From a virus, in IMG/VR virus record IMGVR_UViG_3300006923_000070, positions 1 to 35,380 of that record: a stretch of DNA of 35,380 nucleotides. One strand, 5' to 3'. Positions 3,346 to 35,368 of the stretch are shown piece by piece. The stretch's first letter is position 1. Each line of letters begins with the position of its first letter. The notes beneath the pieces are model-generated. The model ran no database searches. It saw only the letters and a list, made by a program, of their open reading frames with translations, and had not been told where the DNA came from. Made by a program: the position numbers and the translations under genes.

Positions 3346-3349
3346 GTGT

Positions 3350-3577
3350 TTAATTTTTAATGCCGTGCCTCGCGAAAATTGCGGCTGCCTCGTCGGAGCG
3401 TTGTTTCCTGCTCCTTATCTCCTTTGCCTTTCTCAACGCCTCCTCGATAATATAAAGACCCTGTATGTCAGCCTCGCCGCTTAACGCTTCGGCAAGGTTG
3501 TTTGCTGTTTCGCCGATGGTTTCTCCCCTGTAGGCTATTGGGAGATGATGGGTTTTTGTCGTTTCGGTTGATGTCAT
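3350..3577 (-). CDS. Small unknown protein, second gene of the inverted insert
   Basis: This 75-residue protein has no family I recognise. It begins MTSTETTK, which resembles the MTTTNETK start shared by the cassette genes, and ends in a charged helical stretch rich in Lys, Arg and Glu. It follows the gene at 3595-4059 after a short linker, AACGGAGAAAACTAAA, which supplies a GGAG ribosome binding site. Nearly the same linker precedes genes at 22715, 22998 and 25343. It is therefore probably co-transcribed from the promoter at 4089-4066, against the direction of the surrounding late genes, and would produce RNA antisense to the large terminase message. Confidence 0.7.
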   Translation of the reverse strand: MTSTETTKTHHLPIAYRGETIGETANNLAEALSGEADIQGLYIIEEALRKAKEIRSRKQRSDEAAAIFARHGIKN

Positions 3578-3594: not shown

Positions 3595-4059
3595 TTAGTT
3601 TTTTTCGGTTATGTTAAAAGAGGGTTTTGCGGTTTCCAGAAAAGCAATCTTTGCTTTTGCTTTTGCAACAACTGCGGGCTTTGCGCGGCAAGAGTAGTTG
3701 TCGAGCCAAGATTTTGCACAGCGGAGACTTCCCGCAATGCTCATTGCCGATTCGTGTAATCCAAGTTGTGCTGCCATTTTTTTTGCATCATCGAGCGAGT
3801 GGGCAAGGATTGAAAATTTTGGGCTTAGGTTAACCCCGATAAAAGTTCCGCTTTCCTCGGCGGTTGCGGTTCCTTGCTTTTTTCCAAAAGACTCAATCTG
3901 AATTTTGCGAATCTGAACCGTAACCTTTTCGGTCTGGTCATCTGTTTCCCAATGCCTAACCTCAAAGGCTGTTGACCCCTTTTTGAATTTGGAATTGTCA
4001 GACATAAGGTTTGCAAGCCCGTCGGCCTTTTGAAGTTTTGTCTCGTTCGTTGTTGTCAT
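3595..4059 (-). CDS. Cassette gene on the minus strand within the head module (moron-like)
   Basis: This is a 154-residue unknown protein beginning MTTTNETK. The middle region alternates polar and hydrophobic residues, suggesting beta structure, and the C-terminal part is Ala/Lys-rich helix. It carries a complete copy of the repeated promoter-start element on the minus strand, 15 kb away from the other eleven copies. It stands between the large terminase and the next head gene, both on the plus strand. Genes placed against the flow of a late operon with their own promoter are typical additions (morons). The function is unknown; its address suggests it is not needed for virion assembly. Confidence 0.8.
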   Translation of the reverse strand: MTTTNETKLQKADGLANLMSDNSKFKKGSTAFEVRHWETDDQTEKVTVQIRKIQIESFGKKQGTATAEESGTFIGVNLSPKFSILAHSLDDAKKMAAQLGLHESAMSIAGSLRCAKSWLDNYSCRAKPAVVAKAKAKIAFLETAKPSFNITEKN

Positions 4060-4125
4060 GGTTAGAAGTTAGTGCAAAGCGGCTGTGCTGTCAACAGAAA
4101 AAATGATTTATTTTTCTTTTTTTTT
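4036..4125 (-). promoter_or_regulatory. Cassette promoter-start element, copy 1 (inverted)
   Basis: Read on the minus strand: an A-rich then T-rich tract (4125-4095), -35 TTGACA (4094-4089), 17-bp spacer, -10 TAACTT (4071-4066), then CTAACC and ATG at 4059. It combines the TAACTT of one sub-type with the CTAACC of the other. The shared coding start runs to about 4036. Confidence 0.8.
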
Positions 4126-18858: not shown

Positions 18859-18972
18859 ATGAAAGTGTTTGGAAAATTTTTAATTTGGCTGATTGTTCTG
18901 GGGATACCCCTTTCGCTGATTAGCTTTTTAATTATGGGGTCAATTTGGCTTTGGAAACAGTCGTTTAAATAA
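18859..18972 (+). CDS. 37-residue membrane peptide
   Basis: This peptide is almost entirely a single membrane span (residues about 7-32, FLIWLIVLGIPLSLISFLIM) with short basic ends. The ATG comes 4 bp after the lipoprotein stop and the stop codon overlaps the next start (TAATG), so it is translated in line with its neighbours. Possible roles are pinholin-like or antiholin-like; nothing in the sequence decides. Confidence 0.55.
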   Translation: MKVFGKFLIWLIVLGIPLSLISFLIMGSIWLWKQSFK

Positions 18973-19649
18973 TGGAGCCCGATTGGAGCATCAACGAGTT
19001 TTTTGCGCCTGTTTGGTTATCGGAAAAAATTTGCACTTGCGCGGAGGGTGTTGAGGTGCCCTCCCATGACGGCACGCTTGCAATTGAGCTTTCAAGCTCC
19101 AATTCATTTGGGAGCGGCGGCCACCCTGCAACAAAAGCCGCGTTTGACTTGCTTTATCAAGAGCTCCTGTCTCAGAAAGCAAGCAATTTGTTTTTTAACA
19201 CTAAAGGAAAAATCAGATATCTATTAGACATCGACAGCGGCACGGGCCTTTTTCCTATCTTTGCGAAGATCGTCAATCCTGAGATCAAAACGGTTGCCGT
19301 CATCCATCGAAAAGATCGGCCAGCAATAATTTCTAACATGATAAGGAACAAAGTGCAGATTGATCAGATTGTTTTATTTGATGAGTTTTGCGACAGGGAT
19401 TATTTGGAATTTCACAGAAAATTTTTTGATGTTGTCATTACTCAGCGAGGAACTCAACGCGCTGGAATTTCTCCCGCGCAAGCCTTTTCCATAATTTTTG
19501 ATTTATTAAAAGATGATGGCCGCGTTATTTTTTCGGGCTACCCGACCAAAGCGCAACGGTATGTGTCTCACATTATGGGCGAGTTTTTCCGGGATGAAAA
19601 AATTAGCATTGCGCAAGGCTGGCCCGCGATAACGGGCGAACGCTTCTAG
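18972..19649 (+). CDS. PrmA-like SAM-dependent methyltransferase
   Basis: This is a 225-residue protein resembling the catalytic part of ribosomal protein L11 methyltransferase (PrmA). The match has three parts in order: FGSGGHPAT at residues 46-54 (PrmA has FGTGTHPTT), a motif I-like YLLDIDSGTGLFPIFAKI at 83-100, and the closing GRVIFSGYPTKAQRYV near the C-terminus (PrmA has G-x-hydrophobic-SG). The usual first glycine of motif I is replaced by Asp, and the catalytic-loop motif after strand 4 reads VVITQRG, so substrate or activity may have changed. It is coupled to the membrane-peptide gene upstream. L11 or another translation component is a possible target; this is inference. Confidence 0.65.
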   Translation: MEPDWSINEFFAPVWLSEKICTCAEGVEVPSHDGTLAIELSSSNSFGSGGHPATKAAFDLLYQELLSQKASNLFFNTKGKIRYLLDIDSGTGLFPIFAKIVNPEIKTVAVIHRKDRPAIISNMIRNKVQIDQIVLFDEFCDRDYLEFHRKFFDVVITQRGTQRAGISPAQAFSIIFDLLKDDGRVIFSGYPTKAQRYVSHIMGEFFRDEKISIAQGWPAITGERF

Positions 19650-19699
19650 TTTTCGCTTTATTTTTCCTTTTTACCATCAGGGGCACTTGATGCACTGAA

Positions 19700-19830: not shown

Positions 19831-19919
19831 AAAAAAAATAAAAAAAAATCACTTTTTCTGTTGACAGCACAGCCGCTTTGCACCATCCTCTAACCATGAC
19901 AACAACGAACGAGACAAAG
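19831..19919 (+). promoter_or_regulatory. Cassette promoter-start element, copy 2
   Basis: A/T tract from 19831, -35 TTGACA (19861-19866), 17-bp spacer, -10-like CATCCT (19884-19889), CTAACC, ATG at 19896. No ribosome binding site lies in the 30 bp before the ATG. The shared coding start extends to 19919. Confidence 0.8.
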
Positions 19920-20207
19920 ACGACGAAAGCCAGCATCCAGAAACAGTTTAACGTCACCATAGAAACAAAGCTCCGCAAAGAGGGCGACCAGCTCGAGATT
20001 TATGCCAGCGTCTACCCGGGCCAGTTTAAATCAGTTGCCGCTCGCAGGGCCGCAAAGGTCGGAACGCTGATGTGCGCCCCAGAGAATAAGCCGGTGCTGG
20101 AGACTTGGGAAATTGGCCCTCGCGTCGGGTTGTTCGAGAACGGCGGTGTTCCTAGCTTGATGAATACCCTCCTCCGCAACATCAAAGCCGAGCTAGAAAC
20201 CCGCTAG
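19896..20207 (+). CDS. Cassette gene, unknown 103-residue protein
   Basis: This is the first plus-strand member of the array, beginning MTTTNETKTTK. After the shared tag comes a strand-rich segment (FNVTIETKLRKEGDQLEIYASVYPG) and a C-terminal helix (MNTLLRNIKAELETR). No family is recognised. A TTG at 19878 would add six residues (MHHPLT), but it falls inside the promoter spacer and would not be transcribed from this promoter, so the ATG is preferred. The next promoter element follows within 10 bp of its stop. Confidence 0.75.
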   Translation: MTTTNETKTTKASIQKQFNVTIETKLRKEGDQLEIYASVYPGQFKSVAARRAAKVGTLMCAPENKPVLETWEIGPRVGLFENGGVPSLMNTLLRNIKAELETR

Positions 20208-20214
20208 CTGGCAG

Positions 20215-20304
20215 AAAAAAAAATAAAAATAAATCATTTTTTCTATTGACTACACAGCAGCTTTGCACTAACTTAGAACCATGAAAACGAACGAGACAAA
20301 AACC
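20215..20304 (+). promoter_or_regulatory. Cassette promoter-start element, copy 3 (TAACTT type)
   Basis: A/T tract from 20215, -35 TTGACT (20246-20251), 17-bp spacer with CAGCAG in place of CAGCCG, -10 TAACTT (20269-20274), AGAACC, ATG at 20281. The coding start is the shorter form ATGAAAACGAACGAGACA. Confidence 0.8.
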
Positions 20305-20697
20305 GAAACCAAAATCCGCAAGCTCAGGGCCAAGGCTTACCGCATCGCAAAATCTATCCTCGCCAAGCACAACAGGAGCTACAGAAAAAATGAGCTTGGC
20401 AATATTGAGTCATATAACAGGGAGAGCCATGAGTTTTACTCTTTCAGCCTGACCGTAGATCGGGTTTCGTCAAGATACCGCAAGCCCACCGATCAGCTTA
20501 GGTTGTTTGTAAGCGTGACCGTGGGATATAAAAAAGAGTATCGCCCTGCCCTCTGGCTTTCGGGCCGTGAGCAGACCGTTTTTACGGTCGGCAATAACGG
20601 CGGCGTCACGCTTTGGAATGCAGCAAAGAAAAACGGCAAAGCCGCCAAGACAACTCCCAAGGGAACATGGAACGTAATCCATCACCCCAAGTGCTAA
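20281..20697 (+). CDS. Cassette gene, unknown 138-residue basic protein
   Basis: It begins MKTNETKTETK, the shorter tag form. A basic helix (KIRKLRAKAYRIAKSILAKHNRSYRK) is followed by strands (SFSLTVDRVSS, LRLFVSVTVGYKKEYRPALWLSG). The composition suits a nucleic-acid binder but there is no signature. It heads a likely four-gene unit (20281-21931) whose later genes are reached through CA-rich linkers rather than new promoters. Confidence 0.75.
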   Translation: MKTNETKTETKIRKLRAKAYRIAKSILAKHNRSYRKNELGNIESYNRESHEFYSFSLTVDRVSSRYRKPTDQLRLFVSVTVGYKKEYRPALWLSGREQTVFTVGNNGGVTLWNAAKKNGKAAKTTPKGTWNVIHHPKC

Positions 20698-20718
20698 CCA
20701 CCCAACCAAAACCAAAAA
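20698..20718 (+). other. CA-rich intergenic linker
   Basis: The gap between stop and next ATG is CCACCCAACC then AAAACCAAAAA, almost without G or T and without a ribosome binding site. Similar linkers precede genes at 21052, 23372, 26489 and 26951. Confidence 0.6.
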
Positions 20719-21021
20719 ATGAACATAATCAAAATGAACCTTGAAAAAATAAATATCCACGACTTCAACAGGGCCGCCCGTTACACAATCGCCACCAAGG
20801 GCAGCCGATACGATTGGAAGAAAACCGCCGCCAATATTCGGGAGGCAATCAGCAGGGCGATAGAACACGGCTGGTTTGGCGCGGAGGACGCAAATCATTT
20901 TTTCGATTTTGAAATCAAGTCTGCAAAAAGATACGTCACCAAGAGCGACGGCACTTTGATCGGCATGGAAACGACCAAGTGCCTTGATGAGTGGTATATT
21001 GACCGCCGCAGATTTTATTAA
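20719..21021 (+). CDS. Unknown 100-residue protein
   Basis: No family is recognised. The sequence is mixed helix with basic and aromatic residues (TIATKGSRYDWKKTAANIRE, AISRAIEHGWFGAEDANHFF, CLDEWYIDRRRFY). A second ATG 15 bp downstream (MNLEKINIHDF) is an alternative start. It follows the CA-rich linker at 20698 and is presumably read from the promoter at 20246. Confidence 0.7.
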   Translation: MNIIKMNLEKINIHDFNRAARYTIATKGSRYDWKKTAANIREAISRAIEHGWFGAEDANHFFDFEIKSAKRYVTKSDGTLIGMETTKCLDEWYIDRRRFY

Positions 21022-21051
21022 ACCAACAACAACCAAAAACGAACAAAAAAA
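21022..21051 (+). other. CA-rich intergenic linker
   Basis: ACCAACAACAACCAAAAACG followed by AACAAAAAAA. The first 22 bases recur exactly in the linker at 26909. It contains no Shine-Dalgarno sequence. Confidence 0.65.
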
Positions 21052-21531
21052 ATGGCAACAAAAAAACAAATCGAACAGGAACACCAAGCCGAGGTCAAAA
21101 GGCTTGAGTCAAAAATAAACGAACTAGAGAACCACATGATCACGCTCGTTCAAACTGGCGAGCTGATAAATTCTAGCCCGCCTCAAGCAATTGGGCATGA
21201 GTGGAGCGTTTCCGCGTGGAGATCGAACCACCTAGATTTTAGCCATACCGGGGTGAACATGATTTTTGACGATCAGAGTCAATATGGGCAACTGGATGAG
21301 GCCGCAAAAGAAATGCAGGAAAATGTCGTGAAGTGTTTAAAGAAAACAGTTTACACAATCGGGCAAAATGTCGTGAACCTTGCCGCCATAAAGGCCGAGG
21401 GCCACATTGGCGACCATGCTCAAGAGGAACTTGACGAGTCTCTAGTTGTGAACGCCTCCGCCGTGCGGGTTTATAAGGCGGTTGCGGAAACCGCAGCAAT
21501 TATTCAACGCCGTCACACCGCGGGAAACTAA
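21052..21531 (+). CDS. Unknown 159-residue protein with N-terminal coiled coil
   Basis: Residues 4-33 form a heptad-like coiled coil (KKQIEQEHQAEVKRLESK...). A middle part with Trp and His (HEWSVSAWRSNHLDFSHTG) and helical C-terminal sections follow. Function is unknown. It is joined to its upstream neighbour by a CA-rich linker and to the SleB-like hydrolase downstream by a 22-bp gap with a GGAG ribosome binding site. Confidence 0.75.
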   Translation: MATKKQIEQEHQAEVKRLESKINELENHMITLVQTGELINSSPPQAIGHEWSVSAWRSNHLDFSHTGVNMIFDDQSQYGQLDEAAKEMQENVVKCLKKTVYTIGQNVVNLAAIKAEGHIGDHAQEELDESLVVNASAVRVYKAVAETAAIIQRRHTAGN

Positions 21532-21553
21532 AACCAAAAACAAAAGGAGAACG

Positions 21554-21931
21554 ATGAACACACTGATGATTGTTGCGCTCACCATATTAGGCGAGGCGAG
21601 GGGCGAGGGCAGCGGCGGGATGTATCGCGTTGCTTGCGTAATTCAGCAGCGGGAAACCAACCGCGGATTGTCGGCAAAAAAAGTTTGCTTGCAGCGTCGG
21701 CAATTTTCTTGCTGGAACAAGGCCGCGCCGTCGAGGGCTTTACTCAATACGGATCAAGGCAAGTATGCGCTCAAGCTCGCGGCTCTAATCGTTGCGGGCA
21801 AAGACTTGAACCGCGGCATCATTTCAAACGCTGACCATTATTGCACCTTGCGAACGCGGCCAAAATGGGCCAAGGGCCAAAAGGCCGTTGCAGTTTATGG
21901 CAACCATAAATTTTATAAGCTCAAAAAATAG
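21554..21931 (+). CDS. SleB-like cell wall hydrolase (probable endolysin)
   Basis: This is a 125-residue compact Hydrolase_2 (SleB) domain. The family landmarks are present in order: ILGEARGEGSGGMYRVACVI at residues 11-30 with the conserved Glu, QFSCWN at 50-55, NADHYC, and PKWAKGQKAVAVYGNHKFY at the end. SleB-type enzymes are lytic transglycosylases that cut the glycan strands of peptidoglycan, so this is the best endolysin candidate. There is no signal peptide; the N-terminal hydrophobic residues belong to the domain. The leader AAAAGGAGAACG before the ATG at 21554 decides the start. It lies 3 kb from the holin-like genes, inside the small-gene array. Confidence 0.85.
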   Translation: MNTLMIVALTILGEARGEGSGGMYRVACVIQQRETNRGLSAKKVCLQRRQFSCWNKAAPSRALLNTDQGKYALKLAALIVAGKDLNRGIISNADHYCTLRTRPKWAKGQKAVAVYGNHKFYKLKK

Positions 21932-21946
21932 GGGTTTTCTGGGCAG

Positions 21947-22036
21947 AAAAAAAAAGAAAAATAAATCACTTTTTCTGTTGACAGCACAGCCGCTTTGCAC
22001 CATCCTCTAACCATGACAACAACGAACGAGACAAAA
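21947..22036 (+). promoter_or_regulatory. Cassette promoter-start element, copy 4
   Basis: A/T tract from 21947, -35 TTGACA (21978-21983), 17-bp spacer, CATCCT (22001-22006), CTAACC, ATG at 22013, shared coding start to about 22036. Confidence 0.8.
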
Positions 22037-22378
22037 ACCGAAAAAATCCAATCCGCCACAATCCTCAAGCTCGGGGAATTCATCGGGGAAACAGTTATTA
22101 TTTTTGTAAATGGCAAGTATATGCGCCATTGCCGCACGTTTTCCGATTCGGCGGAATACGGCAATGCTCACCAAGACGACACTTTCGGAGAGTGGGAAAC
22201 TGGCGCGTTTCTTTTAATGGAGCGCGTTGAGCAAGCTCGGCGCGTGAACCTTTGGCACTGGAGAGAGCTTGACGCCTCTGAAGCGCAGACGCTAAAGGAG
22301 CAAGGCGAGGAGATGTTGGCCGACGATATGGCCGAGCAGCTACGGCACACCGAGGCTCTCAAGATGGCAGGGGTTTAG
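22013..22378 (+). CDS. Cassette gene, unknown 121-residue protein
   Basis: It begins MTTTNETKTEK. The middle contains GETVIIFVNGKYMRHCRTF and the C-terminal half is acidic helix (RELDASEAQTLKEQGEEM, LADDMAEQLRHTEALKMAGV). No family is recognised. It stands alone between two promoter elements, so it is a single-gene cassette. Confidence 0.75.
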   Translation: MTTTNETKTEKIQSATILKLGEFIGETVIIFVNGKYMRHCRTFSDSAEYGNAHQDDTFGEWETGAFLLMERVEQARRVNLWHWRELDASEAQTLKEQGEEMLADDMAEQLRHTEALKMAGV

Positions 22379-22382
22379 TGCC

Positions 22383-22472
22383 AAAAAAAAATAAAAATAA
22401 ATCACTTTTTCTATTGACTACAAAGCAGCTTTGCACTAACTTAGAACCATGACAACAACGAACGAGACAAAA
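22383..22472 (+). promoter_or_regulatory. Cassette promoter-start element, copy 5 (TAACTT type)
   Basis: A/T tract from 22383, -35 TTGACT (22414-22419), 17-bp spacer, TAACTT (22437-22442), AGAACC, ATG at 22449. It resembles copy 3 most closely but has the long MTTTNETK coding start, as if two element types had recombined. Confidence 0.8.
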
Positions 22473-22676
22473 ACAAACCAAGCCGAGCCAACAGTTGATC
22501 AAGCCTTTGATGCGTTTGACGAAAAACTAGCCAAGGCTCTTGAGGCACTTCAGCAATTTCAAAAAATGGATTTAGACCAGATCGCCGCCGAGGGCGCGAG
22601 GCTCGACAGCTACCAGAGCCGCGAGGAGTTTCTTGCTGACACGAGCAGCGCAGACGCTCATTGGGGCAACGAGTAG
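22449..22676 (+). CDS. Cassette gene, 75-residue acidic protein
   Basis: It begins MTTTNETKTNQAEP. The rest is an acidic helical protein (DQAFDAFDEKLAKALEALQQFQKM, then LDQIAAEGARL). Acidic helical proteins of this size include DNA mimics, but no evidence beyond charge supports that here. It heads a unit that continues through 22715-23863. Confidence 0.75.
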   Translation: MTTTNETKTNQAEPTVDQAFDAFDEKLAKALEALQQFQKMDLDQIAAEGARLDSYQSREEFLADTSSADAHWGNE

Positions 22677-22714
22677 AGATTTAAAAACCAAAGGCAAAAA
22701 CGGAGAAAATTAAA
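22677..22714 (+). promoter_or_regulatory. Linker with GGAGAAAA ribosome binding site
   Basis: The gap ends in AACGGAGAAAATTAAA directly before ATGGAAATCA. The same 26 or so bases recur at 22982-23007, in front of the next gene. Confidence 0.65.
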
Positions 22715-22996
22715 ATGGAAATCAAGCTGGAGAAAATCAAAGAGGCCCAATGGAACGGCAACGGGTTCGGGAATTCAAGTGCGGTTTACAGAGTCAATGG
22801 AACCGAGATTGAAATATGGTCTGACAATCCCGCGTTGCACAGTTGGCGTGCCGTTGATAGGGCAGTCGCTTTTAATAATAAAGAGGAATTTGACGGCGAG
22901 GTTTTTACATGGAAAAGCAATTATACAATCGCCACGGCCCCAACTCGCAAGATGTTGCTGGGAATTGTGTCGGACTACATAAACGGAGAAAATTAA
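22715..22996 (+). CDS. Unknown 93-residue protein
   Basis: This protein shows beta strands around VYRVNGTEIEIWSDNP and a Trp/Lys-rich middle. It ends IVSDYINGEN; the last residues are encoded by the ribosome-binding linker of the following gene (ACGGAGAAAATTAA), so the stop codon is part of that linker. No family is recognised. The start follows a strong GGAG site. Confidence 0.7.
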   Translation: MEIKLEKIKEAQWNGNGFGNSSAVYRVNGTEIEIWSDNPALHSWRAVDRAVAFNNKEEFDGEVFTWKSNYTIATAPTRKMLLGIVSDYINGEN

Positions 22997-22997
22997 A

Positions 22998-23342
22998 ATG
23001 GAAATCATAATCAAACTACAGAAGCGGCACCTTGAGGAATTCAAGTGGTGCGAGTTGGGTGCGATGGAGGATGATATGCGAGGCCCATCACCGCACACCA
23101 CTTGGGAAATTCTTGAGCGGCATGAACGCAACATTGAGTTACGCACACCGGAGGAGGCGGCACAGGTCGCCGATGCGGCAAGGTACGGGACGTTACGGCT
23201 GCACACAAGTGACGCAATCGCTGATCGCATCGTGTCGGAGTGCCTCCGAATTGATGGTGCGCGGCCAATTCACACATCGTGGGACAAGAAGTGTTGGGCG
23301 GCCTTGGCTGACCGCATATCAGTGCTCCGCTCGGCCAACTAA
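22998..23342 (+). CDS. Unknown 114-residue protein
   Basis: It begins MEIIIKLQKRHLEEFKWCELGAMEDD and is mostly helical, with several Trp and Cys residues near the C-terminus (HTSWDKKCWAALADRI). The first four codons and leader match those of the preceding gene (both ATGGAAATCA), a trace of duplication of the linker. The protein bodies do not look alike. Function is unknown. Confidence 0.7.
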   Translation: MEIIIKLQKRHLEEFKWCELGAMEDDMRGPSPHTTWEILERHERNIELRTPEEAAQVADAARYGTLRLHTSDAIADRIVSECLRIDGARPIHTSWDKKCWAALADRISVLRSAN

Positions 23343-23371
23343 CCAACAACACACATCAACAGGAAAAAATA

Positions 23372-23566
23372 ATGAGCGCACGCCGATTGATTGAACTCAG
23401 AAAATTTCAAAATTGGAACGAGCCGCCCGCGGCTACCGAGGAGCCCGTTGATCTTTGTGATTGCTGCGGCGGCCCTCGCAACTCGCATCTTGACAATGAC
23501 GCTTGCGACACTTGCAAGATTTGTCTGGACGAAAGCGAAAGGTTAAAAAATGAAAAGCGAAACTAA
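23372..23566 (+). CDS. Small Cys-rich, zinc-finger-like protein
   Basis: This 64-residue protein has two Cys clusters, CDCC (residues 29-32) and CDTCKIC (45-51), separated by a short loop. The spacing suits a treble-clef or ribbon-type zinc knuckle as found in many small phage regulators. The basic C-terminus (RLKNEKRN) could touch nucleic acid. It follows a CA-rich linker (23343-23371) and overlaps the next gene by 17 bp. Confidence 0.7.
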   Translation: MSARRLIELRKFQNWNEPPAATEEPVDLCDCCGGPRNSHLDNDACDTCKICLDESERLKNEKRN

Positions 23567-23756
23567 GTTTGACGCCCAAGCATTCAGTGCCTTGAAAAAG
23601 CGAGTGGAGCGACTTGAGCGCGAATCTGTTATGCACGCGAATATCTCAATGAAAAACAGAATCATTTGCCGCAATTATGTTGAGGTTTTTAATATATGCA
23701 GACAGCACGCATTAGAATTCTTGGAATGGTATGAGCTAAAGAAAGGTAAAAAATGA
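23550..23756 (+). CDS. Unknown 68-residue helical protein
   Basis: An N-terminal helix with coiled-coil spacing (FSALKKRVERLERES) is followed by a Cys- and aromatic-containing helix (NYVEVFNICRQHALEFLEWYELKKGKK). The ATG lies inside the preceding gene after AAAGCGAAAGGTTAAAA, and the stop overlaps the ATG at 23753. No family is recognised. Confidence 0.65.
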   Translation: MKSETKFDAQAFSALKKRVERLERESVMHANISMKNRIICRNYVEVFNICRQHALEFLEWYELKKGKK

Positions 23757-23863
23757 TTTATTTTTTTATCCCACAAAAAGCGCAACTAAGTTGTGAAAAA
23801 AAGGCTGGCTCCGAATTCTGGAACAAGGCAGAATTGGCTGCGGTTTATTACGGTGCCGCTTGA
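23753..23863 (+). CDS. Possible 36-residue peptide
   Basis: This frame (MIYFFIPQKAQLSCEKKAGS...) begins in an ATGA overlap with the preceding stop, after AAAGGTAAAAA. Translation coupling makes it plausible, but length and composition give no further support. It is followed by 190 bp without a gene. Confidence 0.4.
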   Translation: MIYFFIPQKAQLSCEKKAGSEFWNKAELAAVYYGAA

Positions 23864-24053
23864 TTTGGGTAACTCTCGCGGGCGGTGAGGGGTTTCCTCG
23901 TTCGTTTCCCCGCGCCCCCCCGCAAGAGCTTGCGAGGCATGGCTTTTTAATTTTAGCCATGCCTCGGCCCATTTTTGAGCGGCTAATTCTTTTGCCAATC
24001 ATTTTTTGTATTTTTTGAGCGACAAAGTATTTTGCTGCTCATTTATGATCGGC
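23864..24053. other. Non-coding, hairpin-rich stretch
   Basis: No gene is convincing on either strand. The stretch contains a GC-rich tract (23880-23925) and a 6-bp palindromic hairpin CGCAAGAGCTTGCG (23921-23934). A 12-bp perfect inverted repeat at 23933-23966 follows. It could hold a terminator for the unit started at 22449 or a small RNA. Confidence 0.5.
23933..23976 (+). terminator. Terminator-like perfect inverted repeat
   Basis: CGAGGCATGGCT (23933-23944) and AGCCATGCCTCG (23955-23966) form a perfect 12-bp stem with a 10-base T/A loop. ATTTTT follows 5 bases later. The T run is a little far and short, so termination is likely but not certain; it would close the 22449-23863 unit. Confidence 0.6.
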
Positions 24054-24143
24054 AAAAAAAAAGAAAAATAAATCACTTTTTCTGTTGACAGCACAGCCGC
24101 TTTGCATCATTCTCCAAGCATGACAGCAACGAACGAGACAAAA
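24054..24143 (+). promoter_or_regulatory. Cassette promoter-start element, copy 6
   Basis: A/T tract from 24054, -35 TTGACA (24085-24090), 17-bp spacer ending GCAT, CATTCT (24108-24113), CCAAGC, ATG at 24120. It is the most diverged copy in the -10 to ATG part, and its tag reads MTATNETK. Confidence 0.75.
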
Positions 24144-24572
24144 AGAAACATAGTTTTAAACGATCACATCACCCACGGCAGCGGCCAGCGGAAAACGGTT
24201 TGTGTTTCCACTTGTTTGAGCTTTTTCGGCGTTCCCGTAAATGCTTACAACTACACTTGTAAAGGAATCATCAAGCGCGGGAAGTATGGAACCGACAATA
24301 GGCGCGGTTCCATCTTGCGCCGTTTCGGGTATGCCGTTCGCTCGCGCCTTTCATCGGTTGGCGGTTACGATTCGACCGTTGGCAGCGTTCGCCGCAAAGT
24401 GGCGCAGCTCGGCGACCCCAAAGGCACCAATTATATTGCAATTGTACACGGTCACAATACCGCGCATTGCATTGTGATTGATGACAAGGGGGGCACTGTG
24501 ATTGATACCGACCCCCGAAAGAATGACCGCCGCAGGGTCGCCGAAATACACGCGGTTTTTCCCTCAAATTAA
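24120..24572 (+). CDS. Cassette gene, papain-like cysteine protease-type protein
   Basis: This is a 150-residue protein starting MTATNETKRN. After the tag comes TVCVSTCLSFFGVPV (Cys 28 and Cys 32 at the start of a helix). Near the C-terminus stand YIAIVHGHNTAHCIVID (His 112 and His 116 before a strand) and GTVIDTD (Asp 129). The order Cys-helix, then His-strand, then Asp is that of papain-fold proteins such as C39-like peptidases and their inactive phage relatives. Activity cannot be judged from sequence alone. The start is fixed by the promoter geometry. Confidence 0.55.
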   Translation: MTATNETKRNIVLNDHITHGSGQRKTVCVSTCLSFFGVPVNAYNYTCKGIIKRGKYGTDNRRGSILRRFGYAVRSRLSSVGGYDSTVGSVRRKVAQLGDPKGTNYIAIVHGHNTAHCIVIDDKGGTVIDTDPRKNDRRRVAEIHAVFPSN

Positions 24573-24657
24573 AAAAGAAAAATAAATCATTTTTTCTGTT
24601 GACAGCACAGCCGCTTTGCACTAACTTAGAACCATGACAACAACGAACGAGACAAAA
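24571..24657 (+). promoter_or_regulatory. Cassette promoter-start element, copy 7 (TAACTT type)
   Basis: A/T tract starts inside the preceding stop codon (24570-24572). -35 TTGACA (24599-24604), 17-bp spacer, TAACTT (24622-24627), AGAACC, ATG at 24634. Confidence 0.8.
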
Positions 24658-25011
24658 ACCACCCACACGGTAAAAAAGGCTCTTAGCGGCTCATATGTTT
24701 ATCAAATCGAGGATGTTCAGATTACTCTCGAATATGACGCCGAGCAAACAAACGGAATGGTGTCAGGCGGTTACGGGATGTGGAAAGCCTACCCCATGCT
24801 GGACGGCGAAATTCTTTGGAGTGCGCCTTTTATCTCAGACATGGAACGGTGGTATGACCGCAAAAAAGAATTTGCCAACGATGTCAAAAACCACCCGCAA
24901 ATCCTAATTGCCGATGCGCGGGAGATGATAGCTCGGGAGCTTAAAGACAGAGAGGCTTACAAGGCAGCGAGCGAGAACCTCAATGTTAAAAGCGTCGTGG
25001 ATCACACATAA
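24634..25011 (+). CDS. Cassette gene, unknown 125-residue protein
   Basis: It begins MTTTNETKTTHTVKK. A strand-rich first half (SGSYVYQIEDVQITLEYDAE, then GYGMWKAYPMLDGE) is followed by an acidic and basic helical second half (MERWYDRKKEFANDVKNH, AREMIARELKDREAYK). No family is recognised. It is a single-gene cassette; the stop codon belongs to the next promoter element. Confidence 0.75.
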   Translation: MTTTNETKTTHTVKKALSGSYVYQIEDVQITLEYDAEQTNGMVSGGYGMWKAYPMLDGEILWSAPFISDMERWYDRKKEFANDVKNHPQILIADAREMIARELKDREAYKAASENLNVKSVVDHT

Positions 25012-25097
25012 AAAAATAAAAATAAATCATTTTTTCTGTTGACAGCACAGCCGCTTTGCACTAACTTAGAACCATGACAACAACGAACGAGAAAACA
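25010..25097 (+). promoter_or_regulatory. Cassette promoter-start element, copy 8 (TAACTT type)
   Basis: A/T tract from 25010 overlapping the previous stop, -35 TTGACA (25039-25044), 17-bp spacer, TAACTT (25062-25067), AGAACC, ATG at 25074. From the T-rich tract to the tag it is identical to copy 7. Confidence 0.8.
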
Positions 25098-25307
25098 GCA
25101 GACATCAAAGTAACACAAGAGCCCAACGGCAGCTTTACCATTGAGGCCGCGACCGAGGCCGGGGTTGCGTACCTAGAAAAGCAAATTTGCTTTGGTGCCG
25201 TCGCCGTCAATGTGAGTCACTGGAGTGAAGCTCTGAAGCACATCATTGCTGCCCGTGCATGGAAATTGAGCGTAAACGACCGCGGGCATTTGATCGCTGG
25301 CGCATAG
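25074..25307 (+). CDS. Cassette gene, unknown 77-residue protein
   Basis: It begins MTTTNEKTAD; the tag has lost one codon step relative to MTTTNETK. The remainder alternates strand (DIKVTQEPNGSFTIEAAT) and helix (HWSEALKHIIAARAWKL). Function is unknown. A linker with a GGAG-type site leads to the next gene, which also carries the tag. Confidence 0.75.
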   Translation: MTTTNEKTADIKVTQEPNGSFTIEAATEAGVAYLEKQICFGAVAVNVSHWSEALKHIIAARAWKLSVNDRGHLIAGA

Positions 25308-25342
25308 ATTTAAAAACCAAACCAAAAACGGAGAAACATAAA

Positions 25343-25819
25343 ATGAAAACGAACGAGACAATCATTTACCACATAACCTTAACTTTCAAGGACACCCCAA
25401 GCGCAGACATTGCAAGGCATGATGGGCCGCACAGATGGGACAATTATAACAAGAGCGCAACTTTTGAGGGCGACGACATTTTTGGAACCTTTTTTCTCTC
25501 AGTCTCCGAGCGCGACCGCCAAAAGGTTTCCGAAATTAGCATATCTCGGCACAACAGAAAGACGCGCAGTGAAAAGCTTGCTGGGCATTGGAAAAGGTCA
25601 GCGGCATCAATAGGAGAGGGCGGCACCGAATTGCCCGAAATGATTCGCGACGTTCTTTTTTTTGAGGAGGCAACCCAGTGCCCCCACACCCTCAAGCGAT
25701 GGGCTGCCGCAATTGCTGACATTAACGAGTCTGGGCTTGCTAGGCACCTCACAGAGCGCACCTACTCCTTGGAGAGTTCTAACTATGTTTTTAAGGGCAA
25801 ACTGGTTTGGGTATCTTGA
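25343..25819 (+). CDS. Tagged gene with a Shine-Dalgarno leader, unknown 158-residue protein
   Basis: It starts MKTNETIIYH, with the same codons as the short tag of copy 3 (ATGAAAACGAACGAGACA). Yet there is no promoter element in front, only the leader AAAAACGGAGAAACATAAA with a GGAG site. The start codon lies 35 bp after the preceding stop. The protein has an N-terminal strand pair (IIYHITLTFKD) and a long polar middle. A start at 25259 in the same frame would run through the preceding gene and is rejected. No family is recognised. Confidence 0.75.
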   Translation: MKTNETIIYHITLTFKDTPSADIARHDGPHRWDNYNKSATFEGDDIFGTFFLSVSERDRQKVSEISISRHNRKTRSEKLAGHWKRSAASIGEGGTELPEMIRDVLFFEEATQCPHTLKRWAAAIADINESGLARHLTERTYSLESSNYVFKGKLVWVS

Positions 25820-25823
25820 GCCG

Positions 25824-25912
25824 AAAAAAAATAAAAATAATTCACTTTTTCTGTTGACAGCACAGCCGCTTTGCACCATCCTCTAACCATGACAACAACG
25901 AACGAGACAAAA
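25824..25912 (+). promoter_or_regulatory. Cassette promoter-start element, copy 9
   Basis: A/T tract from 25824, -35 TTGACA (25854-25859), 17-bp spacer, CATCCT (25877-25882), CTAACC, ATG at 25889. Confidence 0.8.
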
Positions 25913-26137
25913 CTTCAAAAAATGATTGCAGATTTTCCGCAATATAATCCCGACGCACTTCGCCAATTGCATGACCTGAAAAGCAAACGCGAATCTTTGG
26001 CGCACGAGCTTGCCACTAATAGCGTTCCCGGAAATAGCGCATGGGCCAAAAAGACAGAACGCAAAATAAGTGGCCTGAAAGCAGCGGCGACACGAATAAA
26101 GAAACAGCACGGAATTTACCCTTTTAACCAAAATTAA
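25889..26137 (+). CDS. Cassette gene, 82-residue helical protein
   Basis: It begins MTTTNETKLQK, as does the inverted cassette gene at 4059, so these two share eleven N-terminal residues. The remainder is basic helix (ALRQLHDLKSKRESLAHEL, then TERKISGLKAAATRIKKQ). No family is recognised. The last codons run into the next promoter element. Confidence 0.75.
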   Translation: MTTTNETKLQKMIADFPQYNPDALRQLHDLKSKRESLAHELATNSVPGNSAWAKKTERKISGLKAAATRIKKQHGIYPFNQN

Positions 26138-26222
26138 AAAAGAAAAATAAATCATTTTTTCTGTTGACAGCACAGCCGCTTTGCACCATCCTCTAACCAT
26201 GACAACAACGAACGAGACAACG
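26136..26222 (+). promoter_or_regulatory. Cassette promoter-start element, copy 10
   Basis: A/T tract from 26136 inside the previous stop codon, -35 TTGACA (26164-26169), 17-bp spacer, CATCCT (26187-26192), CTAACC, ATG at 26199. Confidence 0.8.
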
Positions 26223-26456
26223 AAAATCACCGGCCTCACCCTCAACCCCGCTCAGGTGCTCGCCGCTGCCAAGGCCACGCCCGCCACTCCCCAACGCACG
26301 AGCAACGACTTGCTTGCGCTCAACAATATGCCCCGCAAGGAGCAAGAGGCATATCGCCGCGTTTTGCGTGGCAGTCTCAAGCATTGCGTCATTAGCGCCC
26401 ACGACCGAGCAATTGACGAGCGCCACCTAGCAATACTTGACGCGCTTCTTGGCTAA
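26199..26456 (+). CDS. Cassette gene, unknown 85-residue protein
   Basis: It begins MTTTNETTKITG, followed by a Pro/Ala-rich stretch (AAAKATPATPQRTSNDLLAL) and a basic C-terminal helical part (RKEQEAYRRVLRGSLKHC, then AIDERHLAILDALLG). No family is recognised. It heads a three-gene unit (26199-27730) closed by the terminator at 27754. Confidence 0.75.
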   Translation: MTTTNETTKITGLTLNPAQVLAAAKATPATPQRTSNDLLALNNMPRKEQEAYRRVLRGSLKHCVISAHDRAIDERHLAILDALLG

Positions 26457-26488
26457 ACCAACCAACCAAAACCAAAACACACACGACA
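26457..26488 (+). other. CA-rich intergenic linker
   Basis: ACCAACCAACCAAAACC followed by AAAACACACACGACA. It has repeated CCAA and CA units and no Shine-Dalgarno sequence before ATG 26489. Confidence 0.6.
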
Positions 26489-26908
26489 ATGAACAACCAA
26501 AAAAATTTCGCCAGCCTCTCGGTTAAAGAGAAGCGAGCCAACCCGCCAATCACCGAATCAAAAAAGCTGGGCCGCACACTATCCGCAACTATCCGCATTG
26601 AGCTGCACCCGACGCCCCGAGTTGATGGCTGGGCGCAAGACCCTACCTTTCGTTGTGCGGTTCTTTTTCGCGGTTCGGTTGTCGCCCAATTCAAGCCCAC
26701 CCGATCCACCAGCGAGCGCACCCGCAAGGCGTTGCTTAAAAAGGCCCGCGCTTTTATTTTCAAGGTGGCCGCCGCCCATAATTGCGCGGCCTTTTTGGCA
26801 TACGAGGAAACCTTATTTCATAATTTCGCCCCCGATAAAATGGACGAAAAATATGTTCTTGGCGCATACGCCCCCGAGCGCGTGCCAATGCCGACTTTTG
26901 AAAACTAA
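26489..26908 (+). CDS. Unknown 139-residue protein
   Basis: A basic N-terminal half (SVKEKRANPPITESKKLGRT) precedes strands (LSATIRIELHP, FRCAVLFRGSVVAQFKP). A Lys/Arg helix (SERTRKALLKKARAFIFKVAAAH) then leads to an aromatic C-terminus. No family is recognised. It is the second gene of the unit from the promoter at 26164. Confidence 0.7.
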   Translation: MNNQKNFASLSVKEKRANPPITESKKLGRTLSATIRIELHPTPRVDGWAQDPTFRCAVLFRGSVVAQFKPTRSTSERTRKALLKKARAFIFKVAAAHNCAAFLAYEETLFHNFAPDKMDEKYVLGAYAPERVPMPTFEN

Positions 26909-26950
26909 CCAACAACAACCAAAAACGAAACCATAAAAAAAAGGAATAAA
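26909..26950 (+). other. CA-rich linker ending in a weak ribosome binding site
   Basis: CCAACAACAACCAAAAACGA then AACC and an A run ending AAGGAATAAA before ATG 26951. With the preceding A, the first 22 bases equal those of the 21022 linker. Confidence 0.6.
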
Positions 26951-27730
26951 ATGAAAGGACTATGCTTAGATTCTGCAACAAAAATTCGCTCATACGAATA
27001 TATGCAGAAAATTAAAACTCCAGAGGCCGTGGGCCGCTGGAACCCTCAGCCATACATCAACTCAATTGATCGAGTTGTCAAAAAATGCACTGATCACGGC
27101 TGGCAAATTGTCGAGCAACAATTTGCGACGACCGACGATGATCGCAAATTTTTCGGGCTCATCAATATGGAGCACCCCGAATTCAAAAACCCAGAATACG
27201 GAACCATGATCGGCTTGCGGAATTCTTGGACAAAGCAATTTGCGGATCGGGTTGTTATTGGCAACGATGTTTTCGTTTGCGCCAATATGATGTTTTGCGG
27301 CGAGATGCAAATTGGCCGCCGCAACACAACCAACGCGGCAAAAGATATGGACGACCGTCTTGCCCTTTTGATTGATAACATGGCGGGCTCCTATATCAAC
27401 CAAGGTCAGCGCGTAGCTGCTTACAAAGAGCGCGAGCTTTCGCGCATGGAAATGCACGACGCGGTATGCGAGGCAATGAAAGAGGGAATTCTGCCCAGCT
27501 CAAAAATTGACTCGGTGCTCAATGAGTACAACACCCCGCGCCATGCAGAGCACAAGGGCGAAACCCTTTGGACATTGCTCAACGCTTTCACCGAGGTGGG
27601 CAAAGCTTGGCCCGTGTCCACGCTTGCAGGGCGCACGATTGAGCTACAAAAGCAGCTCGATACCATTTGCCGCCATGAGCCTTACCAGATGAAAGAGGCC
27701 GCGGCTGAGGTGTTGGAGGTTGCCGAATAA
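26951..27730 (+). CDS. DUF932-like protein
   Basis: This is a 259-residue protein. The segment MIGLRNSWTKQFADRVVIGN followed by DVFVCANMMFCGEMQIGRRN matches the DUF932 hallmark of an N-S/D-x-(S/T) stretch, then G-x-x-VFVC-x-N-x-x-F-x-G-E, and a downstream helical portion. DUF932 proteins are common on plasmids and phages; their biochemical role is not settled, and their frequent place near early or leading genes has led to suggestions of a role against host defences. The C-terminal third is helical and Glu/Lys-rich. A strong terminator follows the gene. Confidence 0.65.
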   Translation: MKGLCLDSATKIRSYEYMQKIKTPEAVGRWNPQPYINSIDRVVKKCTDHGWQIVEQQFATTDDDRKFFGLINMEHPEFKNPEYGTMIGLRNSWTKQFADRVVIGNDVFVCANMMFCGEMQIGRRNTTNAAKDMDDRLALLIDNMAGSYINQGQRVAAYKERELSRMEMHDAVCEAMKEGILPSSKIDSVLNEYNTPRHAEHKGETLWTLLNAFTEVGKAWPVSTLAGRTIELQKQLDTICRHEPYQMKEAAAEVLEVAE

Positions 27731-27753
27731 ACAACCCAGAGACAAAGGCAGGG

Positions 27754-27778
27754 GGGGGGCTAACAACCCCCCTTTTTT
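27754..27778 (+). terminator. Rho-independent terminator
   Basis: GGGGGG (27754-27759) and CCCCCC (27767-27772) form a stem with a short CTAACAA loop, followed at once by six T residues. It ends the unit 26199-27730 just before the next promoter element. Confidence 0.85.
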
Positions 27779-27784
27779 GTGGGA

Positions 27785-27873
27785 TAAAAAAATAAAAATA
27801 ATTCACTTTTTCTGTTGACAGCACAGCCGCTTTGCACCATTCTCTAACCATGACAACAACGAACGAGACAAAC
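27785..27873 (+). promoter_or_regulatory. Cassette promoter-start element, copy 11
   Basis: A/T tract from 27785, -35 TTGACA (27815-27820), 17-bp spacer, CATTCT (27838-27843), CTAACC, ATG at 27850. It lies straight after a strong terminator, so its gene must have its own promoter. Confidence 0.85.
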
Positions 27874-28146
27874 AACGAGACAAACAACGAGCAACCTGAC
27901 TTTTTTCTTTTTCGCGGGATCGCAAAGCCCGTCAAGACATGGGGCAAAGACCGCGGCGCAACCGTGTTTGGCGATTTCGTCGGATACAAGCGCAAGGAGT
28001 GGGTTGAGTATTGCAACGGTGATTGTGATTGGGCCTACATGGTGGAGCTTCCCGGCGGGGAACGCTTTGCGATTAGTGAGCAAAATTGGCAAGCCGCCCG
28101 ACAGGCAACAAAATGCGACTTGTTGAGGGCGCGAATTAAAAAATAA
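27850..28146 (+). CDS. Cassette gene with duplicated tag, unknown 98-residue protein
   Basis: It begins MTTTNETNNETNNEQPD: the four-codon unit AACGAGACAAAC is repeated in tandem, an extension of the tag by slippage. The body contains FFLFRGIAKPVKTWGKDRGA and a Trp/Tyr/Cys-rich portion (KEWVEYCNGDCDWAYMVELP), ending in a basic helix. No family is recognised. The stop codon falls in the following promoter element. Confidence 0.75.
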   Translation: MTTTNETNNETNNEQPDFFLFRGIAKPVKTWGKDRGATVFGDFVGYKRKEWVEYCNGDCDWAYMVELPGGERFAISEQNWQAARQATKCDLLRARIKK

Positions 28147-28224
28147 AAATAATTCACTTTTTCTGTTGACAGCACAGCCGCTTTGCACCATTCTCTAACC
28201 ATGACAACAACGAACGAGACAAAA
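28138..28224 (+). promoter_or_regulatory. Cassette promoter-start element, copy 12
   Basis: A/T tract from 28138 overlapping the previous stop, -35 TTGACA (28166-28171), 17-bp spacer, CATTCT (28189-28194), CTAACC, ATG at 28201. From the A tract to the tag it is nearly identical to copy 11. Confidence 0.8.
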
Positions 28225-28725
28225 ACACTCACAGAAGGCACAGCAGGAACCTTACGCGCCAAAGCATTTAACATTTCCGCCGCCAGCACGGAACACGGAA
28301 ACCGGATAGCAATGGCAATCGACGAGCGTCCCGCGTGCTTGAACCCAGCAGAGTCAGGGGCGACGGTGCTAGGTGAAAGCATAGTGGGCACTGGCTCCGT
28401 CCGGTTGTTCTACTCACGGGAAACGTGGCAAGATTGGCAAGAGGCGCAGGACGCGGTGGAGGCGGTCAAAGGCATTAAAAACGGTAAACATGACCCTGAA
28501 TTCCCCGAGGATGCTTTTGCAGTAGGCTTGGAAATGGTCGAAGTGTCAAACGAGTGGTATGAGGCCGCCGAAAATTACCGCAAAAAGGCAACAATAGTTA
28601 CCTACATTGGCACAGGTGGACGCACCCTCACTCACGGCCAAAAATCGGCGCGGGCCAATAAAAAAATTACGGACGCTTGCGCCAACGCCCAAGCAAATTT
28701 CTTTAATTCGCTTTATAAAAAATAA
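28201..28725 (+). CDS. Cassette gene, unknown 174-residue protein
   Basis: This is the longest protein of the array, beginning MTTTNETKTLTEG. The middle contains strands (IAMAIDERPACLN, GSVRLFYSRETW) and acidic helices (DWQEAQDAVEAVKGIK, then EVSNEWYEAAENYRKKA). No family is recognised. It is the last full cassette and is probably the first gene of a long unit running into the replication genes, since no terminator is seen after it. Confidence 0.75.
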   Translation: MTTTNETKTLTEGTAGTLRAKAFNISAASTEHGNRIAMAIDERPACLNPAESGATVLGESIVGTGSVRLFYSRETWQDWQEAQDAVEAVKGIKNGKHDPEFPEDAFAVGLEMVEVSNEWYEAAENYRKKATIVTYIGTGGRTLTHGQKSARANKKITDACANAQANFFNSLYKK

Positions 28726-28740
28726 AAAAAAATCACTTAA
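28717..28740 (+). repeat. Truncated cassette element
   Basis: The first part of the element (A-rich tract to ATCACTT) is present after the 28725 stop, but T-tract, -35, spacer and -10 are missing and AA-ATG follows directly. It looks like a deletion remnant of a thirteenth copy. Confidence 0.6.
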
Positions 28741-30930: not shown

Positions 30931-31281
30931 ATGAAAGAGACAGAACAAGAAATTAAGGGGTCGCGTTTTGAGTCGCATATCGACAGGGCAACGCTCGACG
31001 TTGTTGAGGTTTGCGGAATTGATGAGGGATTGATTTTAAGCCCATCGCGCCAAGAGCACGTTGTGGTGGCAAGGTTTTTTCTTTATACGATTTTGCGAAA
31101 CTCGGGTTTTACTTGGACGCACATTGGGGAAATGATGAACCGCGATCACGGGGCCGTTTATATGGGATATAAGCGGCTGCAAATGCGTTTGCTTTGCGGC
31201 GAGAAAAAGCTTTCATGGATGCGCGACAATCTGCAAGAGCGCGGCTGGATTTTTAAGGAGCACGACCCGAATGATATTTGA
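30931..31281 (+). CDS. DnaA domain IV-like DNA-binding protein
   Basis: This is a 116-residue protein whose middle (residues about 40-85) reads SRQEHVVVARFFLYTILRNS, then GFTWTHIGEMMNRDHGAVYM. This has the helix-turn-helix and the R-D-H-x-x-V signature by which bacterial DnaA domain IV reads DnaA boxes. No AAA+ ATPase part is present. Such lone domains in phages may bind origin sites or compete with host DnaA; either is inference. The leader AAAAGGAGGTAAAAA is a very strong ribosome binding site. It overlaps the nuclease gene by 11 bp. Confidence 0.7.
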   Translation: MKETEQEIKGSRFESHIDRATLDVVEVCGIDEGLILSPSRQEHVVVARFFLYTILRNSGFTWTHIGEMMNRDHGAVYMGYKRLQMRLLCGEKKLSWMRDNLQERGWIFKEHDPNDI

Positions 31282-34875: not shown

Positions 34876-35368
34876 TTTAAATTTTGAAGATAAAATCTGA
34901 TGATTTAGTTTGGCTTTTCATTTTGTTCTCTTTCTTTTTGTTTCTGAGGTTTGTTTTTTTGTTTTGTTTTTAATTTTCTTTGGTTTTCTTTTGCTTTCTT
35001 TGGTTTTTTTCTCTTTCTTTTTGTAAGTTTTCTTTGATTTCTTTTTCTTTTTTATTTTTATTTTAATTTTCTTTTGCTTTCTCTCTTTGTTTTCTCTTTG
35101 TTTTTTTTCTTTGTTTTTTTTTCTTTGGCTTTCTTTGGTTTTTTCTCTCGGGGCTTCTTTCTTTCTTTCCGTTCTTTTGCTTTTTGTTTTCTTTTGTTTC
35201 TTTCTTTCTTTCTTTTTCCTCCGTCTTTCTCCTTTTATTTTCTTTTTGTTTTCCTTTTATTTTCTTTTGTTTCTTTCTTTCTTTCTTTCTCTTTGTTTTC
35301 TTTCTTTCTTTTTTCGGGGGGTTGCTGCCGGGGTAAAAGGTTCTCTCTATTAATAAAAAAGAAAAGCA
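34876..35368. other. Gene-free pyrimidine-rich right end
   Basis: From about 34900 to 35310 the plus strand is mostly T with C and scattered G, in runs such as TTTC and TTTG repeats (for example TTTCTTTCTTTCTTTC near 35270). Such asymmetric purine/pyrimidine tracts can form triplex or single-stranded structures. A hydrophobic Phe/Leu/Ser frame at 35087-35353 is a by-product of base composition. The tract ends in a G-rich patch (35316-35334) and AT-rich sequence next to the terminal repeat. Confidence 0.6.

Follow-up and report, generated by a model that had tools for sequence, protein, structure and literature searches.

Promoter early stem-loop (PeSL) cassettes of T4-like phages were reportedly described by Arbiol 2010 and Comeau 2014. 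PeSLs are composites of a promoter and a terminator stem-loop that mediate modular shuffling by recombination (PMC4503421). Cluster K mycobacteriophages harbour start-associated sequences (SAS), a 13-bp motif at the position of the RBS (GGGATAGGAGCCC-like) found 3-7 nt upstream of the start codon (PMC3203893), together with ESAS, which are promoter motifs of 46-47 bp with a 17-18-bp spacing, an imperfect inverted repeat and a subcluster-specific consensus (PMC3203893, PMC11373665). Repeats of the SAS/ESAS type also occur in cluster EF Microbacterium phages (PMC7302621). Cluster O mycobacteriophages possess leaderless SigA promoters, with +1 on the first base of the start codon, as well as more than 30 copies of a 17-bp dyad, with indels arising from recombination between dyads (PMC4351075). 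Finally, in archaeal viruses such as SIRV2, a virus-specific promoter/operator is common to many singly promoted, dissimilar small early genes predicted to be involved in anti-defence, the inverted repeats being proposed as repressor sites (PMC11065993).

Here, we analysed a viral contig of 35,380 bases (this whole stretch is hereafter designated as the window) in which a block of 88 bp occurs in 12 copies, 11 forward and 1 reverse. Its genes for head and tail, including terminase, portal, major head protein and tape measure, are those of a siphovirus-like marine phage. Eleven of the 12 copies lie to the right of the tail and lysis region, and one is found between TerL and portal on the opposite strand. 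The array region (19896-28725, + strand) comprises 11 element-driven small ORFs of 75-174 aa, with leadered ORFs between them. The nearest relatives are uncultivated viral contigs. With tblastn, none of 50,697 phage records matched the major head protein; the array region had no DNA match in phage records, and alignments of TerL and MCP against genome contigs revealed no relative. A tRNA search of the window detected none, and the element-driven genes gave no significant Pfam or PHROG match. The reading that we favour, with a probability of about 0.68 based on comparative sequence analysis, is that the element would be a start-fused promoter cassette serving both regulated leaderless expression and recombinational gene exchange.

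Anatomy of the twelve copies

In each copy, an A-tract precedes TTGACA/T, which a 17-nt spacer separates from a -10-like hexamer; after a further 6 nt comes ATG, followed by an A/C-rich tag. Counted from the start of TTGAC, ATG is reached after 35 nt in 12/12 copies (6 + 17 + 6 + 6). The first-pass annotation had placed 11 copies on the + strand (19831-28224) and one on the - strand (4036-4125), with a fixed spacing of 17 bp and of 6 bp to ATG, and both claims were confirmed. The reverse copy (4036-4124), with its A-tract, TTGACA at 4094, TAACTT, ATG at 4059 and tag, drives the gene 3595-4059. The forward copies are located at 19831-19918 (-35 at 19861, ATG 19896), 20216-20301 (TTGACT at 20246, ATG 20281), 21948-22035 (-35 at 21978, ATG 22013), 22384-22471 (TTGACT at 22414, ATG 22449), 24055-24142 (-35 at 24085, ATG 24120), 24569-24656 (-35 at 24599, ATG 24634), 25009-25095 (-35 at 25039, ATG 25074), 25824-25911 (-35 at 25854, ATG 25889), 26134-26220 (-35 at 26164, ATG 26199), 27785-27872 (-35 at 27815, ATG 27850) and 28136-28223 (-35 at 28166, ATG 28201). 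A 24-base core matched 12 times in the window and 0 times in 100 shuffles, with a chance expectation of nil. Ungapped pairwise identity over the 88 bp averaged 88% among window copies, the minimum of 70% being due to a 3-nt indel in the copy with its -35 at 20246, where MKTNETK stands in place of MTTTNETK. The coding bases common to the copies extend about 21-24 nt after ATG, close to the 18-24 initially claimed, the tag of copy 20246 being 3 nt shorter.

Behind the elements, the ORF bodies are unrelated, as had been noted, and blastp matches among them are almost confined to the shared tag MTTTNETK. Tandem duplication of a single gene followed by divergence of the bodies would account for the 5' ends in common, but the bodies have no mutual similarity, and orthologues of four of them occur in another phage (42-82% aa identity). 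Since total divergence of the bodies cannot give such orthologues, this origin was rejected and retains hardly any credibility. The element was also said to begin in the stop codon of the preceding gene in many copies, which holds for 4/12 (24599, 25039, 26164 and 28166, the stop codon lying inside the A-tract of the latter), and three others begin no more than about 10 nt from it. Terminator-like hairpins do not accompany the copies in general: only the copy at 27785 has one just upstream, a G7/C6 hairpin followed by a T-run at 27742-27780 on the + strand (MFE -21.1, z -2.4). Moreover, the terminator count of the array region equals that of shuffles, and the promoter-terminator pairing of PeSLs is thus not found here.

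The -10-like hexamer agrees with the initial description in its position, less so in its sequence. The window hexamers TAACTT, CATCCT and CATTCT match TATAAT at 3/6 positions and represent the most variable part among the copies, and a generic promoter scan of the window did not flag the element promoters. A -10 this weak and variable is odd for a strong promoter and speaks against the reading that we favour. As relatives have stronger hexamers at the same place, the failure of the scan is a warning on the weak -10 and no refutation.

Conserved features in related phages

A self-comparison of 30 relative contigs, complemented by directed scans, brought the number of start-fused elements to 31 in 6 genomes of four lineages, window included, with a 17-nt spacer in 31/31. 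Counts in the relatives are lower bounds because many contigs are fragments, and amount to at least 5 in G009, 2 in G031 and 4 in each of G032, G026 and G034. G027 and G032 seem to be one and the same phage. When viral contigs were scanned with lineage-specific element patterns, no additional element contigs emerged, and the remaining hits were coding-sequence coincidences. Across lineages, identity of the element with that of the window drops to 38% in G009 and 56% in G031. The -10 is separated from ATG by 6-7 nt in the window, G031 and G009, and by 9 nt in the G032 group. The relatives have TATGCT, TATAAC, TATTTT and TAGAGT, and several of these phages thereby have a better hexamer than the window; A at position 2 is kept across lineages, as is T at position 6, except for TATAAC in G031. 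By reading the sequence, a hairpin-like upstream block was also noticed in the G031 copies. Leaderlessness is not universal, since a comparable promoter precedes a leadered gene in G021 and at one element of G032. These sequences suggest that the promoter may be older, the fusion to the start having come later as a refinement, or that the order was the opposite. The first-pass annotation had proposed a dual role in expression and gene exchange. For the expression half, it is the comparative anatomy that argues, with the 17-nt spacer, the -10-like hexamer and the position of ATG fixed in every lineage.

In the standard sigma-70 geometry, with 6 nt between the -10 and ATG, +1 falls on the A. The bases ahead of ATG in the element leaders are CTAACC, AGAACC or CCAAGC, and an SD-like motif occurs in 0/12 element genes versus 8/13 other starts in the array region. 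The elements thus display the layout of leaderless sigma-70-type promoters, with a -10 about 6 nt before the start codon, no SD and a 17-nt spacer. Because ATG coincides with the predicted transcription start and the element genes have no SD, their mRNAs are probably leaderless. The 24 nt after ATG contain on average 0.39 T in element genes versus 4.53 in 117 other genes, and 90% of the former have at most one T in the tag versus 8% of the latter. For nearly all window 5' ends, no fold was predicted around the start.

The near invariance of MTTTNETK in the window, and the occurrence there of one gene with the tag and without the promoter, might indicate that the block is conserved for a protein-level signal, such as a targeting, stability or packaging peptide. 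This is improbable in our view, as the tag peptides differ in other lineages (MTNDNNSNQ, MNERNKTNQ and MTANTTTK), which have only T-free, A/C-rich codons in common. Since the amino acids differ, the shared property belongs to the RNA, and the tag probably acts at that level. In E. coli, CA repeats downstream of AUG raise both leadered and leaderless translation (PMC9031893).

Every copy further carries a dyad of about 15 bp within the spacer, whose sequence shifts between lineages while its symmetry is kept. In the window, the common form GCACAGC-C-GCTTTGC, illustrated by positions 19867-19881 (+ strand) between -35 and -10, has one mismatch, and the most symmetric version is CAAAGC-A-GCTTTG at copy 22414. 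Elsewhere, the dyad reads GCAAAGC-G-GGTTTGC in G031, a perfect ACGAGGC-G-GCCTCGT in G009 and GGCAAGC-G-GCTTGCG in the G032 group. With four lineage representatives, 21-23 of the 24 scored pairs are formed, which 0/100,000 base shuffles reached, and pairs 3, 5 and 6 exhibit two-sided compensatory changes between lineages. Some G032-group copies are far less symmetric (3-4/7 pairs), and others have it displaced towards the -10. Lying upstream of the predicted start, the dyad should act as DNA, as the binding site of a dimer, and is probably an operator; a protein bound there, between the hexamers, would repress the promoter or remodel it. The window yielded a single HTH-like protein, 30931 (DnaA domain IV-like), which was considered as the regulator and proved unconvincing because the element-bearing relatives have no homologue. 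HTH proteins are also encoded by G009 and G006, and no link to the dyad was established.

Exchange of element segments and genes

The element core of the window copies contains 14 informative sites, with 26 four-gamete pairs and an Rmin of 3, which indicates that the copies have exchanged segments; the four-gamete signal could in part reflect recurrent mutation. In the orthologous pair formed by the window gene at 26199 and the G009 gene at 12123, the bodies are 79% identical at the nucleotide level and the elements only 39%; with a mean identity of 88% among window copies, this points to concerted evolution within genomes. Association of a gene with the element also varies. The 154-aa ORF at 3595-4059 (- strand) lies inverted beside the terminase in the window, and its G009 orthologue (67-68% identical) is inside the array, behind a leader. 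The gene at 24120 is placed behind an element in both the window and G032, and has none in G009. For the gene at 27850, an element is present in the window, whereas those of G032 and G009 have none. Two half-elements on the + strand represent frozen breakpoints. The left half, at 28718-28738, consists of the A-tract and TCACTT abutting another gene start (28741), without promoter, ATG or tag, and the right half, at 25343-25361, is the ATGAAAACGAACGAGACAA tag placed after an SD-type leader (ACGGAGAAACATAAA), without the promoter block.

Breakpoints were compared among G032, G026 and G034, which share stretches at about 91-93% nucleotide identity. Of five junctions in the array or at the left locus, four were inside an element, either +20 to +32 nt past its ATG or within the -35/spacer, and the remaining one was at +79. 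Homology ended at +21/+23 after ATG in the first array element, at +20/+22 in the second, at +22 in the left-locus element (block 2567-3401, ATG at 3379) and at -25 from the nominal start in the last one, and beyond these ends the three genomes have different genes. Element windows represent 3.3% of the compared region, and the probability of finding 4/8 ends there is about 7e-5, an indicative value only, as 8 is a hand count of 3' block ends and events are few. The check for breakpoints within the element that accompanied the first-pass annotation thus came out in its favour, and the junctions support the exchange half of the dual role. RecT-like annealing proteins, exonucleases and RusA are encoded by the relatives, and an exonuclease and a RuvC-like resolvase by the window; these enzymes could drive exchange at about 80 bp of homology.

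Single-gene units with a common sequence between them are also what an integron-like, site-specific cassette array would look like, with the element as recombination site. However, no integrase was seen among the window proteins tested, breakpoints range from -25 to +79 in mosaic copies with no single cut point, and the putative site contains a promoter and codons. Integron-type cassettes were rejected on the first two grounds, and we consider them very unlikely.

A far stronger competitor, which we place slightly below even odds, is that the copies are SigA-like promoter repeats with an inverted-repeat operator of the known SAS/ESAS type, recombination being a mere by-product of their identity, as with repeats of any kind. 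The length, spacing, imperfect inverted repeat and subcluster-dependent consensus of cluster K ESAS speak for it, yet the SAS/RBS motif is missing here, and the start codon and following codons are inside the repeat. An excess of breakpoints is also predicted by this explanation, which differs from the start-fused cassette mainly in whether exchange is selected.

Proposed mechanism and comparison with known systems

In the start-fused cassette that we propose, the A-rich UP-like tract, the -35, the 17-bp spacer and the -10 would set the transcription start at or next to ATG, and each small gene would be transcribed as a leaderless mRNA. The initial codons, A/C-rich and free of U, would provide an unstructured translation-initiation sequence replacing the Shine-Dalgarno. 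The fixed spacer would carry a putative dimer-type operator, and one lineage-specific DNA-binding regulator, equally putative, might govern every copy, the scattered genes forming one regulon of singly promoted and probably early or accessory genes. Since the copies are nearly identical over about 88 bp, homologous recombination among them, in one genome or across genomes, would convert them to one sequence, and an incoming gene would land pre-fused to a start and a promoter that already function. The sequences themselves show the repeats, their geometry, the lack of an SD, the conserved dyad, the T-free tags, the homogenisation inside each genome and the breakpoints at the element; where transcription starts, whether the operator is occupied, how translation is affected and which enzyme recombines the copies are the parts of this scheme that we infer.

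More tentatively, the cassette might be a dedicated gene-capture socket, its within-genome identity being selected for exchange as well as expression, a possibility that we regard as rather unlikely. As promoter, operator, start and N-terminus move as one block, a captured gene would at once be transcribed, translated and included in the regulon; if this is true, a landing gene needs neither leader nor Shine-Dalgarno to join the phage regulon. The element unites start-associated repeats whose role was obscure, leaderless promoters and gene-shuffling recombination cassettes, which have been encountered separately in phages. With gene replacement ending at the element, how phages wire new small genes into their regulation becomes directly testable. 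The element may also be used as bait, the genes behind it in these uncultivated marine phages being candidate accessory genes for host takeover or anti-defence, an approach already taken with archaeal viruses (PMC11065993).

The ESAS of cluster K are the nearest known system in anatomy. As with SAS/ESAS, repeated start-associated blocks precede unrelated small genes in the non-structural part of the genome, and some orthologous genes have no element; as with ESAS, -35 and -10 are separated by 17-18 bp and associated with an imperfect inverted repeat and a lineage-specific consensus. In contrast, the 13-bp RBS motif of SAS, whose genes are leadered, is absent (0/12 with an SD-like motif), and assignment to the SAS/ESAS family fails because of this missing RBS-position SAS. 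Unlike in SAS/ESAS, ATG follows the -10 by 6-9 nt, the repeat takes in the first 7-8 codons, the dyad is inside the 17-bp spacer and identity extends over about 88 bp. PeSLs resemble the element in being repeated promoter cassettes of a variable small-gene region, with exchange at the cassette as in G032, G026 and G034; the window element differs by having no stem-loop and by including the start codon, and the phage is unrelated. Cluster O phages also have both leaderless promoters and recombination at dyads, but there the two are separate, the dyads being mostly off promoters and the leaderless promoters not near-identical repeats. The SIRV2-type viruses similarly place one virus-specific regulatory sequence before many dissimilar small genes; their promoter is archaeal, and the accessible portion of the source describes no start-codon tag.

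The initial claim of novelty has to be narrowed, since blocks combining promoter, inverted repeat and start (SAS/ESAS) and shuffling cassettes (PeSL) are known. What looks new is the start-fused form, as no description of a repeat including ATG and the first codons was found in the limited collection of literature searched. By analogy, the element, which also contains ATG and the codons that follow, would work like an ESAS plus a PeSL.

Genes carried in and around the array

The array of promoter-start elements is immediately preceded by a gene (18972-19649) encoding a PrmA-like methyltransferase, which matches the ribosomal protein L11 methyltransferase family with an E-value of 1.7e-10 and has homologues in the relatives as well. 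Among the element-driven genes, the one located at 24120-24572 encodes a protein in which C28, H116 and D residues are conserved. The best PDB matches to its low-confidence structural model (pLDDT 69) were the C39 peptidase domains of PCAT1 and ComA, with weak scores (E ~0.03), and this product is possibly a papain-like cysteine protease. Further downstream, a small protein (30931-31281) displays an HTH resembling domain IV of DnaA, its match to PF08299 (E 9e-7) falling slightly short of the curated cut-off; no homologue of this protein was found in the relative contigs compared.

A second class of gene start

A/C-rich leaders devoid of a Shine-Dalgarno (SD) sequence (AACCAACAACAACCAAAAACG) form a second class of gene start in the window, where they occur at 21021-21052, 26907-26938, 20700-20718 and similar sites. 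Leaders resembling this type are recurrent in the relatives, and are also found near the edges of homology blocks. The cell wall hydrolase gene (21554-21931, PF07486) lies inside the accessory array and has a normal SD leader.

Element repeats and contig ends

The near-identical sibling contig G001 (sequence L094) terminates at 19690, partway through the first element of the array. Assemblies of short reads are interrupted by these repeats, and element arrays of this kind are thus probably under-reported. The right end of the window contig is occupied by a long low-complexity, T-rich stretch (34905-35353).

Sequences upstream of the elements in relatives

In the related contig G031, the repeat units (L058, 780-1044 and 1445-1712), of about 270 bp each, include a GC-rich, hairpin-like block 5' of the promoter, so that each unit, judging from its sequence, combines something terminator-like with a promoter and a start. 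Unlike the window, from which it is absent, other relatives repeatedly exhibit a short inverted repeat, CCCTGAAAAAACAGGG / CCCACAAAAACAGGG, located some 50 nt 5' of the -35 of their elements (L061 and L062 in G032, L059 in G009 and L073 in G034). This inverted repeat may form a stem-loop like that found in the promoter early stem-loop (PeSL) cassettes of T4-like phages.
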